A stretch of DNA of 64,000 nt, taken from contig CANLOU010000002.1 of assembly GCA_947492995.1 (NCBI GenBank), positions 744,001 through 808,000 on the forward strand, in the 5' to 3' direction. Source of the DNA: an uncultured Litoreibacter sp. Its GTDB lineage: Bacteria > Pseudomonadota > Alphaproteobacteria > Rhodobacterales > Rhodobacteraceae. Positions 8,114-21,414 of this stretch are shown piece by piece. The notes below the pieces were generated by a model that ran no database searches, was not told the origin of the DNA, and saw only the letters and a list, made by a program, of their open reading frames with translations. Numbering within the stretch: the first letter of the stretch is position 1; each line of letters starts with the position of its first letter. The position numbers were made by a program, and so were the translations under genes.

Positions 8114-9385
8114 TCATGGCAATACGCGCTCGATGATATGGGCAAATGAGCCTGCCACGCGCCCCTCGCGCAGACCCATCGGGGGCAGGGCGTTCCCCTC
8201 TGCGTCTAGCGCGTCGAACAAAGGCGTTCCCTCGGCCTTGATGGTCGAGGCGTAATGAAACTCGTGCCCGTTAAAAATGCCCGTCATAGGCCCGTGGGCC
8301 GCGGTCAACACGCGGTAGCCGAGATGCAACTTTCTTTGGGCAAAACTGGTTTGCAGGGGCAGCAGCCCCGCCATCTTGTGGCTTACGCCTGCCGTATCTG
8401 TCAGGCTTTCCCCCAACGCCATATATCCACCGCATTCACCATATATATCAGTATGTTGTGCGGCGTCTTTGATGCTTTCAAGAAACGTGGTCGCAGCGGC
8501 CAGCGTGTCAGCATGCAGCTCCGGGTAGCCACCGGGAAGATAAATCAGGTCCGCCGGTGGGACGGGATCGTTGGCGAGGGGCGAAAAGTACCGCACAGTG
8601 TCGCCATTGCGGATCATGTCACGGATCTGGTGAGGGTAGGTGAACCCAAACGCTATGTCCCGGGCGATCGCAATGTGACGCCGCGCAGGTGGGATCGGCG
8701 GCGCGGCAGCGGGCACGGGGCGTGGCGCGGCAAGGCTGGCCAGCAGCCCCAGCTCAACCTGCCCTCCGACAATCGAGGCCGCCTCGTCTAGATAGTGTTC
8801 CAGATCGGTACGCTCACCGGCCTGCACCAACCCAAGGTGACGCGAGGGGGTCGCGAGGCTGGCGGAGCGGTGCACAGCCCCCAGTATCGGCAATTTCATG
8901 TGGGCCAGAGCCGCGCGAAGCATGGCTTCGTGCCGCGCGCTGCGGACCTTGTTCAGAATGAGCCCTGCGATCTTGACGCGTGCATCATGCCACGCGAACC
9001 CTGCCACCAGGGGCGCGATGGATTGCGCCATATGCGACGCGTCCACGACCAACACAACCGGCAAATCCAATTGGCGGGCCAAATCGGCGACCGCACCGCG
9101 CCCGTCAGGCGGCGCGCCGTCGTACAACCCCATCGCGCCTTCGATAAGCAACAGATCCTCACCGGCGGCAAGCTCTTCGATCCGCTCGGCCGACATGGCC
9201 CAGGCGTCAAGGTTCAGGCAGGGCTGGCCGCAGGCGGCCTCGTGAAAGCGGGGGTCGATATAGTCGGGGCCAGATTTGGCCCCACGCACAGCAATGCCCT
9301 GGTCGCGAAGCGCCCTGAGCAGCCCCAATGTGATGGTTGTCTTGCCGCTGCCCGATGAGGGCGCTGCGATAATCAGTCCCGGCAT
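8114..9385 (-). CDS. cobB: cobyrinic acid a,c-diamide synthase
   Basis: A 423-residue ATP-dependent amidase that converts carboxyls a and c of (hydrogeno)byrinic acid to amides with glutamine as nitrogen donor. The N-terminal P-loop is SSGSGKTT (10-17), and the C-terminal class I glutamine amidotransferase domain shows IYGECGGYMALGES with the catalytic Cys. I start at ATG 9385 (MPGLIIAAPSSGSGKTT); the frame stays open 25 codons further upstream but that part runs through a hairpin and into cobA. No strong ribosome-binding site is seen, so coupling to cobA is likely. Confidence 0.93.
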   Translation of the reverse strand: MPGLIIAAPSSGSGKTTITLGLLRALRDQGIAVRGAKSGPDYIDPRFHEAACGQPCLNLDAWAMSAERIEELAAGEDLLLIEGAMGLYDGAPPDGRGAVADLARQLDLPVVLVVDASHMAQSIAPLVAGFAWHDARVKIAGLILNKVRSARHEAMLRAALAHMKLPILGAVHRSASLATPSRHLGLVQAGERTDLEHYLDEAASIVGGQVELGLLASLAAPRPVPAAAPPIPPARRHIAIARDIAFGFTYPHQIRDMIRNGDTVRYFSPLANDPVPPADLIYLPGGYPELHADTLAAATTFLESIKDAAQHTDIYGECGGYMALGESLTDTAGVSHKMAGLLPLQTSFAQRKLHLGYRVLTAAHGPMTGIFNGHEFHYASTIKAEGTPLFDALDAEGNALPPMGLREGRVAGSFAHIIERVLP

Positions 9386-9390
9386 TTCGA

Positions 9391-9432
9391 TTTTTCTACG
9401 AAAAATCCAGCGCAGAATTTTCGTAGAAAATT
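9391..9432. repeat. paired TTTTCTACGAAAA / TTTTCGTAGAAAA inverted repeats
   Basis: TTTTTCTACGAAAAAT (9391-9406) and AATTTTCGTAGAAAATT (9416-9432) are each self-complementary around TAC or GTA, and they also pair with one another over 13 bp to form a longer hairpin. They fill the cobA-cobB gap and end 5 nt before the cobB start codon. A third copy follows pgi at 21372-21390. Confidence 0.6.
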
Positions 9433-9434
9433 CG

Positions 9435-10286
9435 TCATGCGCTTTCAGCGGGGCGGCCACGTCCCAAAGGGTCCAGATCGCGTGCCGGGTGGCCCGCGCT
9501 CATGTTTTGCCAATCCAGCACCTGCCGCATCAGCACCGAGCGGCCAACGCAGATGATGGCCGGTGGCTCAAGCGCGGACGCGGCCACGTCCTCGACACAG
9601 GTCCCAAGTGTGGTTTCCAGCACCTGTTGGTCCTCGGTCGTGGCCGTGGTCACAAAGGCCATGGGTTCAGAGGCGGGGCGGCCAGCCTCCAGCAGTGCTG
9701 CCGCGATCCGGGCAATGTGTTTCATCCCCATATAGATCACGATCACCTGTGATCCCTTTGATATTGCTTGCCAATCCAGAGAAGACGTCACGTTGCCGGA
9801 CTGGTCATGGCCGGTCACGAAGGTCACCGACTGGTTTACGTCGCGATGGGTCACGGGGATGCCTGCATAGGCCAATCCGCCAATCCCGGCTGAGATGCCG
9901 GGGATGATCCGGATAGGAACCCCGTGCTGCACCAAGGTCTGCGCCTCCTCGCCGCCACGTCCAAACACAAATGGATCGCCGCCTTTCAGGCGCAACACCC
10001 GTTTTCCGGCGCGGGCCAGATCGACCAGCCTTAAGGATATGTCGCGTTGCTTGGCCGACGGTTTGCCGCCGCGTTTGCCCGCGTAGATCAGCTCGGCCTG
10101 TGGGGCCCATTCCAAAATCGCCTCTTGCACCAAAGCGTCGTAGATCACCACATCCGCTTGGCGCAGCGCGTTTAGCGCATGCAAGGTTAATAGGCCGGGG
10201 TCGCCCGGTCCCGCGCCGCACAACCACACCCAGCCTTTTTCCAAGGTGGGCCAGTTTTTGGCGGGAAGGGACAGCGAGTCGGTCAT
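9435..10286 (-). CDS. cobA: uroporphyrinogen-III C-methyltransferase
   Basis: A 283-residue SAM-dependent methyltransferase that adds methyl groups at C-2 and C-7 of uroporphyrinogen III to give precorrin-2, the branch to corrinoids and siroheme. Family motifs are VWLCGAGPGDPGLLTLHA near the N-terminus, RLKGGDPFVFGRGGEE in the middle and IIPGISAG just after. I chose ATG 10286 (MTDSLSLPAKNW) because homology starts there; 21 further codons are open upstream. It is divergent from cbiD and leads the cobA-cobB-MFS group. Confidence 0.94.
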   Translation of the reverse strand: MTDSLSLPAKNWPTLEKGWVWLCGAGPGDPGLLTLHALNALRQADVVIYDALVQEAILEWAPQAELIYAGKRGGKPSAKQRDISLRLVDLARAGKRVLRLKGGDPFVFGRGGEEAQTLVQHGVPIRIIPGISAGIGGLAYAGIPVTHRDVNQSVTFVTGHDQSGNVTSSLDWQAISKGSQVIVIYMGMKHIARIAAALLEAGRPASEPMAFVTTATTEDQQVLETTLGTCVEDVAASALEPPAIICVGRSVLMRQVLDWQNMSAGHPARDLDPLGRGRPAESA

Positions 10287-12180: not shown

Positions 12181-12793
12181 AACGGATGCAGATGTTGCCG
12201 CAGGGGCCGCTTGGCTTGCGGCACATGAGCCGCGCTTTGCCACTGTTTTGCCAGAGCTTGAGCCATTGCCGCTGCGGCGCCGACCGGACGGGTTTGGCCA
12301 ATTGCTGAACGCCATCATGGGCCAGCAGGTCAGCACGGCCTCCGCCGCGGCAATCAACAAACGCCTGCAAGAGGCTGGCTTGCTTGAGGAAACCGCCGTG
12401 GCCCGCGCAAGGGAGGAAGACCTGCGCGCCTGCGGCCTGTCGCGGCAAAAGATACGCTACGCCGGGGAATTGGCGCGGGCGCGGATTGACTACGAGGCGC
12501 TAAGAACCGCCGACAGCGACACAGTGATCGAAACCCTGACGGCGGTTCCGGGTATCGGCAAATGGACAGCCGAGGTCTACGCCATGTTCTCGCTGGGCCA
12601 CGCAGATGTCTTTGCGCCCGGCGATCTGGCTTTGCAAATTGCCGCGCAGCACCTGTTCGAGCTGGACGAGCGTCCCAAGGAAAGGGACCTGCGCGCGATG
12701 GCCGCGCAGTGGTCGCCTTGGCGGGCGGTTGCCGCCCGGCTGCTCTTTACCTACTACAGAACAATCAAAGGCCGTGAGGGGATCGGAACGTGA
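12167..12793 (+). CDS. DNA-3-methyladenine glycosylase II (AlkA-type, HhH-GPD)
   Basis: A base-excision repair glycosylase of about 208 residues. Helix-hairpin-helix TAVPGIGKWTAEVYAMF lies at about 125-141 with the catalytic aspartate D153 in DVFAPGDLALQ, and LNAIMGQQVS is at 48-57. No Cys cluster for an iron-sulfur centre is present, as expected for AlkA. The start is not certain: TTG 12167 gives MRIIETDAD and has GGGTGG 6-7 nt upstream, with only 14 bp overlap to cobK; TTG 12137 is possible too. It shares GTGA with the next gene. Confidence 0.88.
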   Translation: MRIIETDADVAAGAAWLAAHEPRFATVLPELEPLPLRRRPDGFGQLLNAIMGQQVSTASAAAINKRLQEAGLLEETAVARAREEDLRACGLSRQKIRYAGELARARIDYEALRTADSDTVIETLTAVPGIGKWTAEVYAMFSLGHADVFAPGDLALQIAAQHLFELDERPKERDLRAMAAQWSPWRAVAARLLFTYYRTIKGREGIGT

Positions 12794-13461
12794 CACGCGT
12801 ATTGGAAGGCGGGCGCAAGGCGTCCAAATCGGGCGAGACGGACTCGCTGGTGGTTTTTTTGCACGGCTACGGCGCGGATGGCGCGGACTTGTTGGGTCTG
12901 GCGGACCCTTTATCGGAGCATTTGCCTGATACGGTCTTCGTGGCCCCCAACGCGCCAGAGCGCTGCATTGGCAACCCGATGGGGTTCCAGTGGTTCCCGA
13001 TCCCATGGATCGACGGCTCGTCCGAGGAAGAGGCCGAAATCGGCATGAACGCCGCCGTTGAGGACCTGAACGCCTACCTCGATACGGTGATGGCCGAAGA
13101 AGACGTGCTGCCCGAACAGGTCGTGGTCATCGGCTTTTCACAAGGCACCATGATGGCCCTGCACGTGCTGCCCCGCCGCGAGGACGAGGTTGCGGGCATC
13201 GTCGGCATCTCAGGCCGCTTGCTGCGCCCCGAACTGCTGAAAGACGAGGCGATCAGCAAGCCGCCCGTGCTGCTGGTCCATGGCGACGAGGACGAGGTCG
13301 TGCCGCCGATTTCCATGCCTGAGGCGGGCGACGCGTTGCAGGACGCAGGCTTCGAGGTGTTCGGCCATGTTATGAAAGGCACCGGCCACGGCATCGCGCC
13401 GGACGGGCTTGGCGTGGCGCTCAGCTTTATCGGCAAGCAGTTGAATATGGATTTGGGATAG
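12790..13461 (+). CDS. alpha/beta hydrolase, phospholipase/carboxylesterase family
   Basis: A 223-residue cytosolic serine hydrolase with GTG start. The oxyanion region is FLHGYGADGADL (23-34), the nucleophile S118 is in GFSQGT, the acid is in LLVHGDEDEVV and the catalytic His in GTGHGIAP. This is the acyl-protein thioesterase/YpfH-type group; the substrate is unknown. It overlaps the glycosylase gene by 4 bp and is the last gene before the palindrome array. Confidence 0.9.
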   Translation: MTRVLEGGRKASKSGETDSLVVFLHGYGADGADLLGLADPLSEHLPDTVFVAPNAPERCIGNPMGFQWFPIPWIDGSSEEEAEIGMNAAVEDLNAYLDTVMAEEDVLPEQVVVIGFSQGTMMALHVLPRREDEVAGIVGISGRLLRPELLKDEAISKPPVLLVHGDEDEVVPPISMPEAGDALQDAGFEVFGHVMKGTGHGIAPDGLGVALSFIGKQLNMDLG

Positions 13462-13511
13462 GTGATATAACAGGCAAGGCGGGAACGTCTGTTTTGAGGC
13501 CGTAGCGGGAA

Positions 13512-13535
13512 AAGGCCGTTCGAACGGCCTTGTAC
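13512..13535 (-). terminator. minus-strand terminator from palindrome 1
   Basis: Read on the minus strand, the first palindrome is followed directly by TTTTCCC, giving a stem plus short U-run downstream of the gene at 13704-14210. The third palindrome behaves likewise (TTTTTGAG follows on minus). Confidence 0.4.
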
Positions 13536-13584
13536 GCACGAATTGCAATTCGTGCTCAAAAACGTCTTCGAAGACGTTTGCCCC

Positions 13585-13609
13585 AATCCGCTTCGAAGCG
13601 GATTTTTCC
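13585..13609 (+). terminator. plus-strand terminator from palindrome 4
   Basis: The 20-bp palindrome runs into TTTTTCC on the plus strand and could end the cbiD-to-esterase transcript. Confidence 0.45.
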
Positions 13610-13703
13610 AGATCCGAACGACCGCTTCGTCCCGCAAAGCTGCCGCTATCGGCTTGCTCCCAGTCTGTGGAACCTAACAATTCTTGCCTTTCAATAAAGT
13701 CTA

Positions 13704-14210
13704 TCACCCGCTCATAACCTTTAACCGCCTCACAGCCCCCTTCAGCAGCAGCTTGGAATAGAGGTCATGAAACCGCATCAGCGGTTTGACGAGGCGGGGT
13801 AGCTCTCCGGTCTCCGGGTTCGGCGTCACCACCGATCCGAACCGCAGGCGGGTGCTGTCGCCATCGAGGGGTTCGACCATGAACCACGACTTGGTTGATC
13901 CCGTCAGGTCATTCATCAGCAATTGGGTGTCCGTGCGGTGCTCCATGTCCCATGCCGCAAAGCTGGTGGCGTCGCCTTGCGCAATGGCGCGTGCCTGAGC
14001 GTCTGTGGAGGGGCGTTTGCCGGTGTATTTCAAGATGACGCGCTCGCATTTGAAAAGGCGGCCTGTGTAGAACGCCTCGACATATTGGGGCAGGGTGACC
14101 GCGCCTTCGACCTCCGTTTCGTAGCAATCGGTGTGGTGGCCCGGCAGGTCTGCGTATGTCGCATGCAATGCGCCTTGGGGCAGGGTGGTCTTGATAATGA
14201 GGATGGACAT
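13704..14210 (-). CDS. conserved hypothetical protein, 168 aa
   Basis: I do not recognise a family with certainty. The protein has no signal peptide or membrane segment, is mixed alpha/beta in appearance, and has conserved-looking aromatic and acidic positions (GHHTDCYETEVEG, MEHRTDTQLLMND, SWFMVEPL). The last part, LMRFHDLYSKLLLKGAVRRL, recalls the C-terminal helix of START/SRPBCC-type proteins, but that is only an impression. It faces the esterase gene across the palindrome array and is divergent from the HNH gene. Confidence 0.7.
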   Translation of the reverse strand: MSILIIKTTLPQGALHATYADLPGHHTDCYETEVEGAVTLPQYVEAFYTGRLFKCERVILKYTGKRPSTDAQARAIAQGDATSFAAWDMEHRTDTQLLMNDLTGSTKSWFMVEPLDGDSTRLRFGSVVTPNPETGELPRLVKPLMRFHDLYSKLLLKGAVRRLKVMSG

Positions 14211-19104: not shown

Positions 19105-19766
19105 ACCTTATCGAATACCCCGATCAGGACATGATGATGATTGATCTGGCCCAGAACTTGGCCGGAGAACTCAAAGAGTGCTTGATGGTCCATGAGCACG
19201 CCTCTTTTGCGGTGCCGGGCGGCACCACGCCGGGTCCGGTATTCGACGCGCTATGCGCGGCTGATCTGGATTGGGGGCGTGTTCACGTCATGCCGACAGA
19301 CGAGCGCTGGGTGGATGAAACATCACAGCGCTCCAATGCGCGGCTTATCAAGTCCCGCCTGCTGACAGACCGCGCGGCGGATGCGGTGTTTGTGCCATTC
19401 TACCGCGACGGCGTGTCGGCGGAGGACGCGATGGTGGGACTATCGCAGGACCTAGACGCAGAATTTCCAATCTCGGTGCTGTTGTTGGGGATGGGGGCGG
19501 ATATGCATACTGCCTCGTTATTTCCGGGGGCCGCCGAATTGCCCGCCGCCTTGAGCGCCGCCGCGCCGGTCATGGCCATCCACCCCGAGGGGCAGGAAAC
19601 CCGCGTGACGCTTACGGGGCCGGCCCTGTCAGGCGCAATGAGCACGCATGTGCTGATTTCGGGGGAGGCCAAGCGCGAGGCGCTGGAGCGCGCAAAGGGA
19701 TTGAGCGTCGAGCAGGCCCCGATCAACACCGTCCTGTCAAACGCAACCGTACATTGGGCACCATGA
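19101..19766 (+). CDS. pgl: 6-phosphogluconolactonase
   Basis: A 221-residue DevB-type lactonase that hydrolyses 6-phosphogluconolactone. Motifs seen are AVPGGTTPGPVFDAL, VMPTDERWV and LLLGMGADMHTASLFPGA. The ATG at 19101 overlaps the zwf stop (ATGA), which I prefer over an upstream in-frame start at 19083. It overlaps pgi the same way. Confidence 0.94.
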   Translation: MNLIEYPDQDMMMIDLAQNLAGELKECLMVHEHASFAVPGGTTPGPVFDALCAADLDWGRVHVMPTDERWVDETSQRSNARLIKSRLLTDRAADAVFVPFYRDGVSAEDAMVGLSQDLDAEFPISVLLLGMGADMHTASLFPGAAELPAALSAAAPVMAIHPEGQETRVTLTGPALSGAMSTHVLISGEAKREALERAKGLSVEQAPINTVLSNATVHWAP

Positions 19767-21370
19767 TGGAAAAAGCACGCTGGGATGAATTGGCACGCGC
19801 CGCCGCAACGCGGCCCTCGATTGCCTCACTGTTTGACGCAGATAATGACCGGGCAACAAAATTCTCAGCCAGCATGGGCGACATGTTGTTTGACTATTCC
19901 AAGACCCAATTGTCGGAGAGCTCACTGGGGCTTTTGCTGGATATGGCCCGCGACGTTGATCTGGCTGGAAAGCGGGCGGCAATGTTTGCAGGTGCCCCCA
20001 TCAACGAGACGGAAGGCCGCGCAGTTCTGCACACCGCATTGCGGGCACCGGAATCCGCAAAGCCCGTGCAACTGAGTGCAGCCGAATTTGGCGAGGTCCA
20101 CAAGACACGGGCCCGAATGGCCGCGTTTGCCACATCAGTGCGCAACGGCAGCTTTGTGGGGCAGGGCGGCAAGATCACGGATGTTATCAATATCGGCATT
20201 GGCGGCTCGGACCTTGGTCCGGCCATGGCCGTGCTGGCGCTGGCCCCCTATCACGACGGGCCACGCACCCATTTTGTGTCCAACATTGACGGCGCGGATA
20301 TTGCCGAGGTGATGGCGGCGCTGGACCCTGCCACGACGCTGGTGATCGTAGCCTCCAAGACCTTCACAACCATCGAGACCATGACCAATGCAGCGACCGC
20401 ATTCGAATGGATCAAGACCAAGGTTGCCAACCCCGCTGCGCAATTTGCGGCGCTGTCCACATCCGAGGAAAAGACATCGGCATTTGGGATCGCGGCAGAG
20501 CGCGTCTTTGGATTTGAGGATTGGGTCGGCGGGCGCTATTCCATGTGGGGCCCGATTGGGTTGTCGCTGATGCTGGCCGTGGGTCCTGAGAATTTCGACG
20601 CGTTCTTGCAAGGCGGTCACGAGATGGACCGCCATTTCGCGGAAACCGATTTTTCAGAGAACCTGCCGGTGTTGCTGGCCTTGGTGGGCGTGTGGCACAA
20701 CCAGGGATGCGGCCACGCGACGCGCGCCGTGCTGCCCTATGACAACCGGTTGTCGCGGCTGCCTGCCTATTTGCAGCAGCTGGAAATGGAGTCGAACGGC
20801 AAGTCGGTGGCGATGGATGGGTCCTCGTTGGAGGTGGCATCCGGTCCCGTGGTCTGGGGCGAGCCAGGCACCAACGGGCAGCATGCATTTTACCAGCTGA
20901 TCCATCAAGGCACCCGTGTGGTGCCTTGCGAATTTATGGTGGCCAAAGAGGGGCATGAACCGGAGCTGGCACATCATCATGCATTGCTTGTGGCCAATTG
21001 CCTGGCGCAATCCGAAGCGTTGATGGTGGGGCGCTCGCTGGACGAGGCCAGGGCCATCATGGCTGCGAAAGGATTGGAAGGCAGCGAGTTGGAGCGACAG
21101 GCGCGCCACCGGGTGTTTTCGGGCAACCGTCCATCGACCACGTTGGTGTATCCGAAGCTGGCGCCCTACGTTTTGGGGCAGATCATCGCTTTGTACGAAC
21201 ACCGGGTGTTTGTGGAGGGGGTGATGCTGGGCATCAACTCCTATGACCAATGGGGGGTTGAACTGGGCAAGGAACTTGCCACGGCGTTGTCGCCTATTCT
21301 GGCGGGCGAGCAAAGCGATGCCGGCAAGGACGGCTCGACGCGGATGCTGTTGGGATATTTGCGGGGGTAG
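19763..21370 (+). CDS. pgi: glucose-6-phosphate isomerase
   Basis: A 535-residue phosphoglucose isomerase interconverting glucose-6-phosphate and fructose-6-phosphate. Signatures are VINIGIGGSDLGPAMAV, VGGRYSMWGPIGL and the active-site GTNGQHAFYQLIHQG; the C-terminal SYDQWGVELGKELA is also typical. The start at 19763 (MMEKARW) is coupled to pgl by ATGA; the adjacent ATG at 19766 is equally possible. It lets fructose-phosphates feed the oxidative branch encoded upstream. Confidence 0.96.
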   Translation: MMEKARWDELARAAATRPSIASLFDADNDRATKFSASMGDMLFDYSKTQLSESSLGLLLDMARDVDLAGKRAAMFAGAPINETEGRAVLHTALRAPESAKPVQLSAAEFGEVHKTRARMAAFATSVRNGSFVGQGGKITDVINIGIGGSDLGPAMAVLALAPYHDGPRTHFVSNIDGADIAEVMAALDPATTLVIVASKTFTTIETMTNAATAFEWIKTKVANPAAQFAALSTSEEKTSAFGIAAERVFGFEDWVGGRYSMWGPIGLSLMLAVGPENFDAFLQGGHEMDRHFAETDFSENLPVLLALVGVWHNQGCGHATRAVLPYDNRLSRLPAYLQQLEMESNGKSVAMDGSSLEVASGPVVWGEPGTNGQHAFYQLIHQGTRVVPCEFMVAKEGHEPELAHHHALLVANCLAQSEALMVGRSLDEARAIMAAKGLEGSELERQARHRVFSGNRPSTTLVYPKLAPYVLGQIIALYEHRVFVEGVMLGINSYDQWGVELGKELATALSPILAGEQSDAGKDGSTRMLLGYLRG

Positions 21371-21371
21371 C

Positions 21372-21390
21372 AATTTTTCGTAGAAAAATT
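21372..21390. repeat. third copy of TTTTCGTAGAAAA inverted repeat
   Basis: AATTTTTCGTAGAAAAATT has 8-bp perfect arms around GTA. It shares its core with the two copies between cobA and cobB. It starts right after the pgi stop codon. Confidence 0.55.
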
Positions 21391-21393
21391 GGG

Positions 21394-21414
21394 AAGGCTT
21401 TTTAAAAGCCTTTT
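21394..21414 (+). terminator. intrinsic terminator of zwf-pgl-pgi
   Basis: AAGGCTTTT and AAAAGCCTT (21394-21402 and 21404-21412) form an A/T-rich stem followed by TT, downstream of pgi. Confidence 0.55.

Follow-up and report, generated by a model that had tools for sequence, protein, structure and literature searches.

Dispersed hairpin arrays at gene ends in a Litoreibacter genome and its relatives keep Watson-Crick pairing while their arms change

Between two convergent genes of an uncultured Litoreibacter sp., four perfect palindromes of 20 bp follow one another at an almost constant distance, each with different arms. What kind of element is built in this way, and do its arms pair for the sake of an RNA or of the DNA itself? 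We examined the array within the window, by which we mean the whole stretch of 64,000 nucleotides that was analysed, and followed it through its own genome (G000), its genus and its family.

The array and its near-identical copies

The array is bordered on the plus strand by a gene of the Abhydrolase_2 (phospholipase/carboxylesterase) family (12790..13461), which stops 50 bases before hairpin 1, and on the minus strand by a convergent reading frame with no Pfam or NCBIfam match (13704..14210), which stops 99 bases after hairpin 4. The hairpins, to which no strand is assigned, lie at 13512..13531 (hairpin 1, AAGGCCGT arms, TCGA loop), 13536..13555 (hairpin 2, GCACGAAT arms, TGCA loop), 13560..13579 (hairpin 3, AAACGTCT arms, TCGA loop) and 13585..13604 (hairpin 4, AATCCGCT arms, TCGA loop). 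Each is a perfect palindrome of 20 bp, and their starts are 24, 24 and 25 bp apart. The window contains four palindromes of at least 20 bp, whereas 50 first-order shuffles average 0.1, and the fold of 13490-13665 has a z of -4.2. Both the coordinates and the excess over shuffles thus bear out the regular array with 24-25 bp spacing that an earlier note on this DNA had described. The T-runs to which that note drew attention are present (five and four T, with palindrome 4 running into the five), but they consist in part of the palindromes' own TT ends. A terminator scan of 13300-13800 found none, and an Rfam scan of the 64-kb window returned a single tRNA and nothing at the array.

A DNA search revealed that the window array is one of 17 near-identical copies in its own genome, with 92-98% identity over 127-159 aligned bases. 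A 25-base pattern recovered 17 places, split 10 to 7 between the strands, and the top group of a covariance model (below) in this genome consisted of the same 17 copies. From their alignment by eye and the variability of their flanks, the common repeat extends approximately over 13498..13630 (plus strand), and similarity tapers over about 25 further bases on each side. Hairpins 1 and 2 are invariant in the 17 aligned copies; hairpin 3 has its central base altered in one copy (L035), and hairpin 4 has its first base altered in L032 and lacks its 3'-end T in L034. Base differences number 2 in the 1359 cells of the 80 palindrome columns and 18 in the 221 cells of the 13 spacer columns (Fisher P = 3e-14), which indicates that the palindromes are constrained even within this young group. 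Since the palindromes are so nearly invariant, the window copy alone shows no covariation. By our own ORF calls, the young copies occupy 8 convergent and 9 co-directional gaps and no divergent one (P = 0.012 against an expected 23%); the nearer gene is 43 to 285 bases away, a greater distance than for most of the older arrays described below.

The young copies also allowed us to examine the outer stem of 10 bp (13499..13508 with 13643-13653, no strand assigned) with which the earlier note closed the array. It pairs in the window copy, with one bulge, and the 3' arm is absent in all 16 of the other copies. The same is seen in more diverged arrays: in the 22-base flanks of 75 arrays with at least two units, the longest exact stem averages 3.73 with the array's own partner flank vs 3.67 with swapped partners. 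Beyond G-rich and C-rich flanks, neither the 17 young copies nor the 75 diverged arrays support a conserved outer stem or a closed multi-hairpin junction, and we therefore reject it. Some single arrays, for example L037, L068 and L125, do have a good closing stem.

Several further sequences were seen around the young copies. Outside the array, where a MITE would carry conserved terminal inverted repeats and a target duplication, a poorly conserved AATGTCYGCT..AGCGGACATT pair can be recognized by eye. On either side of the copies (in the window at about 13489-13498 and 13625-13652) runs a second sequence that is less well conserved, AATGTCYGCTYTGAGCCC .. CGACCGCTTCGTCCGCATAGCGGACATT. Part of this flank sequence is present without an array in G012 (L005), so an older repeat may have served as carrier or target. 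Next to two of the young copies there is a different dispersed intergenic repeat (around GGGCATCGCCAGACCGCCCGACAGGGCTGGCGATTTGG), which is present in G006 too (L021, about 1800-1900; L035, about 2230-2330; L182, 10050-10300).

Diverged relatives and paired change of the arms

The covariance model, R1, was built from the window copy and five arrays of the genus genome G017. Run on 21 genus genomes with E up to 0.01, it gave raw matches on both strands in four, namely 67 in G000, 72 in G017, 18 in G007 and one (E = 0.004) in G008, and none in the other 17. Merging and fetching the sites among the matches listed (150 candidates scored per genome, E up to 0.004) yielded at least 58 older, diverged sites, at least 10 of them in G000 in addition to the young copies, at least 39 in G017 and at least 9 in G007; the weakest, such as L114, hold one unit. 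Of 394 genomes sampled from the family, at least 33 have a match at E up to 1e-6, and three of these reach 86 to 93 raw matches on both strands. In the class, under strict filters, at least one of 385 genomes matches, which is the own genome only. Family and class counts are lower bounds, as nine candidates were scored per genome. The earlier note had made its reading depend on other copies that keep the palindromes; such copies exist, they keep them, and this favours its finding.

The window repeat had no match in the plasmids or phages searched, and its exact pattern none in the viral contigs searched; a plasmid, phage or viral origin is accordingly rejected. Comparing five array loci with Rfam at E up to 1 gave one ctRNA match, below threshold and away from the array, and we found no matching family in Rfam or named in the open-licence literature searched. 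Guide-RNA (TIGR) arrays were dropped as candidates because the sites are scattered singly after ordinary genes.

At 85 diverged sites, where only the largest cluster per site was retained, we counted 262 hairpins: 40 sites have four, 10 three, 21 two, 10 one and 4 five. Unit intervals measure 23-25 nt in 155 of 177 cases. These type I units share the consensus AAGSSNNT-TNNA-ANNSSCTT, with 8-bp arms and a TNNA loop, and include 123 distinct 8-nt arms. Their loops are mostly strand-symmetric (TCGA in 149 and TGCA in 35 of the 262). Pairing extends through the arms to the T..A of the loop, but the two bases at the centre are free to depart from symmetry, which fits a hairpin and not a duplex operator. 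Under the filter used to collect them, which demands at least 7 of 8 Watson-Crick pairs (6 beside another unit) and is thereby biased against G-U, 44 of 2096 pairs are non-Watson-Crick (11 G-T, 13 A-C and 20 others).

The covariance-model alignments are less biased than this filter; they include the model-building sequences, derive from loci known beforehand to carry arrays and show many sites on both strands. In 98 aligned type I matches, 99.1% of cells are paired, and 789 both-sided changes stand against 12 one-sided ones. As controls, shuffled 3' letters pair at 68% and slid structures at 47% at most. Covariation among copies, which the earlier note had proposed as a check, is therefore present between diverged copies. 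The note's further suggestion that base pairing rather than sequence is selected agrees with this paired change; it does not extend to the 17 young copies, which are near-invariant in sequence.

G-U pairs are rare in the same alignments, with 16 of 3037 type I cells (about 0.5%) by our own count of the alignment table. Hairpins found generally after stop codons in G001, G006 and G017, a control that includes chance hairpins and was not cleared of arrays, contain 9-11% G-U, or 18-26% under a looser rule. That wobble is rare even where only one strand is sense is the strangest of our results and speaks for a process at the DNA level. Asymmetric loops at co-directional sites show no clear strand preference (TGGA 6 and TCCA 3; TCAA 5 and TTGA 4; TGAA 2 and TTCA 1).

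A second kind of hairpin, type II, has arms of 9-10 bp and a 3-nt loop and can occupy a type I slot (rpoB-rpoC, before trpB). A sequence-blind scan for clustered perfect hairpins found six clusters in 400 kb of G006 (two clear type II, four AT-rich and less regular), eight, divided equally between types I and II, in 200 kb of G017 and three in the window; there were none in 200 kb of G001 and none in one shuffle of each stretch. The type II model, R2, matches in 13 of the 21 genus genomes (E up to 0.001) and in 56 of the 394 family genomes (E up to 1e-5). Its 39 aligned matches (37 distinct) hold 150 both-sided and 0 one-sided changes in 664 cells. Within the window, two type II-like hairpins (8-bp arms, 3-nt loop) lie on the minus strand at 9389..9433, between a minus-strand tetrapyrrole methylase gene (stop at 9435) and cobB, a placement that assumes a cobB start at about 9385, where the family match begins, while the listed ORF (8114-9460) starts farther upstream. 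On the plus strand, two AT-richer hairpins, a small type II-like pair, occupy 21371..21412 from the base after the stop of phosphoglucose isomerase (19754-21370).

Gene ends and shared slots

With gene calls from our own ORF heuristic, 63 of the 75 arrays with at least two units have both neighbours called; 10 are overlapped by a called ORF and 2 are unclassed. Among the 63, 33 are co-directional, of which 26 lie within 20 nt of the upstream stop or overlap it, with a median of 51 nt to the next start, and 27 are convergent, of which 25 lie within 20 nt of a stop or overlap it. Three are divergent, and two of these (L146 and L147) represent the trpB slot and are hence really co-directional. 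In the stretches examined of three genus genomes, 21-27% of the intergenic bases belong to divergent gaps, so that arrays are depleted there (P = 9e-5). Array ends, taken as 10 bases each (2 of the arm and 8 beyond), have a longest T-run of at most three at 132 of 150 ends; at least five T in 10 nt occur at 24 of the 150, a minority that could pass as terminators.

The gap before trpB, which follows trpF and a small reading frame (identities taken from G000), could be read in 30 of 35 genomes searched, all of them chosen for holding arrays somewhere. Type I units under the 7-of-8 rule are present in 20 of the 30, with two or more units in 18. By eye, G007 and G123 carry type II units, G355 has type I units farther upstream and the other seven have none, which brings the genomes with two or more units to 21 of these 30 array bearers (18 with type I, 2 with type II and G355). 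Among ten arrays of four units, each from a different genome, both sides have changed in 48 cells, no pair is G-U and 2 of 320 cells are unpaired. The 504 pairs from 19 genomes, collected with the 7/8 Watson-Crick filter, include 4 mismatches, and neither G-T nor A-C is among them; the twentieth genome, G175, has three units with one G-T in 24 pairs. The gap of G007 (L217) holds the longest array by eye, five clear type II hairpins and a weaker sixth. Upstream of trpB in L214, a reading frame of about 76 aa after trpF has no NCBIfam match, and its 3' end recurs by eye upstream of trpB arrays in many genomes.

The gap between rpoB and rpoC carries two type I hairpins in G000 and G017 and two type II hairpins in G006, within almost the same flanks. 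A comparison of G000 with G017 shows 9 differences in the 40 bases of the two units and about 3 in 80 bases of the adjoining flanks. A tree of the region places G006 as sister of G000 and G017 outside that pair; since the flanks are near-identical in all three though G017 does not group with the others, transfer of the region is possible. Another 13 species have rpoB upstream, and there the stop is followed by no more than one clear short hairpin; in this comparison G011 was left out because its contig is short upstream, G013 and G019 gave no match, and G005 and G007 have no rpoB before rpoC.

Two of six arrays compared with G001 or G006 (L075 and L113) look like clean additions, and the other four (L069, L086, L087 and L103) are too diverged from their relatives to judge. 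In G000, an ATGA stop-start overlap that is intact in G006 is split by about 88 bases with two hairpins, and each end of the insertion shows ATGA. In G001, two convergent genes adjoin end to end; in G017, they have an array between them.

Known repeats and competing explanations

The REP, BIME and REPIN repeats of E. coli and Pseudomonas resemble the arrays in being clustered short palindromic hairpins that are non-coding, dispersed and extragenic, at 3' ends and within operons; the arrays are likewise dispersed, short, palindromic and extragenic, apart from the 10 of 75 that a heuristic ORF overlaps. Unlike REP, they share little beyond the AAG..CTT ends and the TNNA loop, and their arms are rewritten between copies. 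REP super-families are named by a GTAG or CGTC tag (PMC3733652). Such a tag stands beside the first or last unit in none of the 75 arrays and on 26 of 504 unit sides, against a background of 5.8%. PF01797, the REP-associated tyrosine transposase (Y1/RAYT), was found in none of the 21 genus genomes, while a control search was positive in 5 of 14. With neither tag nor PF01797, we rejected membership in the REP/REPIN-RAYT system. BOX elements of Streptococcus are also modular, with a variable number of internal units; their modules share sequence and an outer boxA-boxC stem, whereas the arrays have no supported outer stem and arms that differ. Intrinsic terminators and the arrays both present GC-rich hairpins after stop codons, and the arrays differ in having several per site, mostly no T-tract, positions inside operons as well and a patchy occurrence between species; the window array was not assigned to the class of a GC hairpin followed by a T-tract.

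The formation and upkeep of hairpins by replication template switching has been reported (PMC8794818), in a treatment of ribosomal and microRNA stems that calls its own strongest evidence for the maintenance of short stems circumstantial. The hairpins described there and ours have in common both-arm change, perfect pairing and four-nucleotide loops; in the arrays, the paired change runs across a whole dispersed family.

Our data show dispersed elements with near-identical copies in the genome of the window, a 3'-end position of the older copies, and arms that change without losing Watson-Crick pairing. The reading we favour, to which we give nearly an even chance, is that they form a structure-defined relative of REP/BIME repeats that serves as a 3'-end or intercistronic mRNA barrier, with arms kept perfect by selection together with arm-copying in DNA. 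E. coli BIMEs have been reported as mRNA stabilisers and attenuators (PMC2267715). Transcription from either side would give mostly two to four strong short hairpins soon after the stop codon. These may bar the way to 3'-to-5' exonucleases, defining where the upstream message ends and shielding that 3' end; such a barrier would be usable in both directions, inside operons and between convergent genes, with no need for a full terminator. Selection would weed out mismatched arms and arm-copying (intrastrand template switching) would mend them; both arms would then change together, and G-U intermediates would rarely be seen. Template switching by itself leaves unexplained why other hairpins after stop codons lack such perfection, so selection on pairing, or copying during the spread of the element, is needed too. 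Several observations count against this reading: the rarity of G-U, seen also before trpB, where only one strand is sense, is odd for a structure working only as RNA; asymmetric loops show no clear strand preference; the young copies keep a greater distance from genes than the older arrays do; and the search for PF01797, the one mobiliser family covered, identified no mobilising enzyme.

We also consider, tentatively, that the arrays make up a class of element defined mainly by its architecture, perfect hairpins in a 23-25-nt rhythm after stops. Their arms would be rewritten as pairs by arm-copying, either in place by template switching or during copying of the element, and whole units, even type I for type II, would be exchangeable in a fixed slot with flanks near-identical.

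How far can the same facts be explained without a role in mRNA? The arrays might instead act as DNA: extruded as cruciforms, or folded as hairpins in single strands, they could be recognized by a structure-specific protein or provide the substrate for self-copying of the element. Each copying step would make one arm from the other, so that units are born perfect, in keeping with Watson-Crick pairs on both strands, little wobble, the ratios of both-sided to one-sided change (150 vs 0 of 664 cells in type II, 789 vs 12 of 3037 in type I), mostly strand-symmetric loops, the 17 near-identical copies and the two clean insertions relative to relatives. We consider this rather unlikely, as transcripts are suggested by the strong preference for 3' ends and the scarcity in divergent gaps, the 21 genus genomes contain no Y1/RAYT transposase, and the window repeat is unmatched in the plasmids and phages searched. 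A less probable view holds the repeats to be largely neutral or selfish, without host function, their arms seeming to covary because template switching repeatedly makes imperfect hairpins perfect, and their place at gene ends reflecting tolerated insertion. The patchy distribution (at least 33 of 394 family genomes; 4 of 21 in the genus, one weakly) would suit it, as would the report that template switching creates and maintains hairpins (PMC8794818) and the insertions relative to relatives. It sits poorly with the general post-stop hairpins of the same genomes, which are less perfect (the higher G-U above, chance hairpins included), with palindromes constrained relative to spacers in the young copies, and with the repeated occupation of the trpB region by two or more units.

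The earlier note thought bidirectional termination between the convergent genes the simplest partial explanation; the arrays would then be ordinary intrinsic terminators in double form. Strong hairpins after stops, and a window copy between convergent genes whose last palindrome enters five T, would suit it. Few ends with a T-tract and arrays inside operons fit plain terminators poorly, and arrays stand in rpoB-rpoC and before trpB, the scan of the window array finds no terminator, and 17 of 21 genus genomes lack any match. We thus regard termination as improbable and side with the note's own view that the array is no ordinary terminator. Least probable by far are double-stranded binding sites for a dimeric regulator, which the note had also offered. 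The perfect symmetric 20-bp palindromes with conserved AAG..CTT ends and a T-N-N-A centre look the part, yet such sites do not explain covarying arms (123 distinct among 262 units, complementarity kept at variable positions), and the arrays lie at 3' ends and rarely in divergent gaps.

Whether compensatory change in a stem proceeds in two steps via G-U or at once via template switching is an open question. With pairing near-perfect and sequence rewritten, the arrays provide a good natural test of how paired structures evolve. Several genomes carry dozens of short perfect hairpins each, some in orthologous slots, and both-sided changes far outnumber one-sided ones, which makes the question directly measurable. 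For the organisms themselves, the arrays may help to fix, across a large bacterial family, where mRNAs end and in what stoichiometry the genes of an operon are expressed; the rpoB-rpoC gap and the region upstream of trpB are examples.
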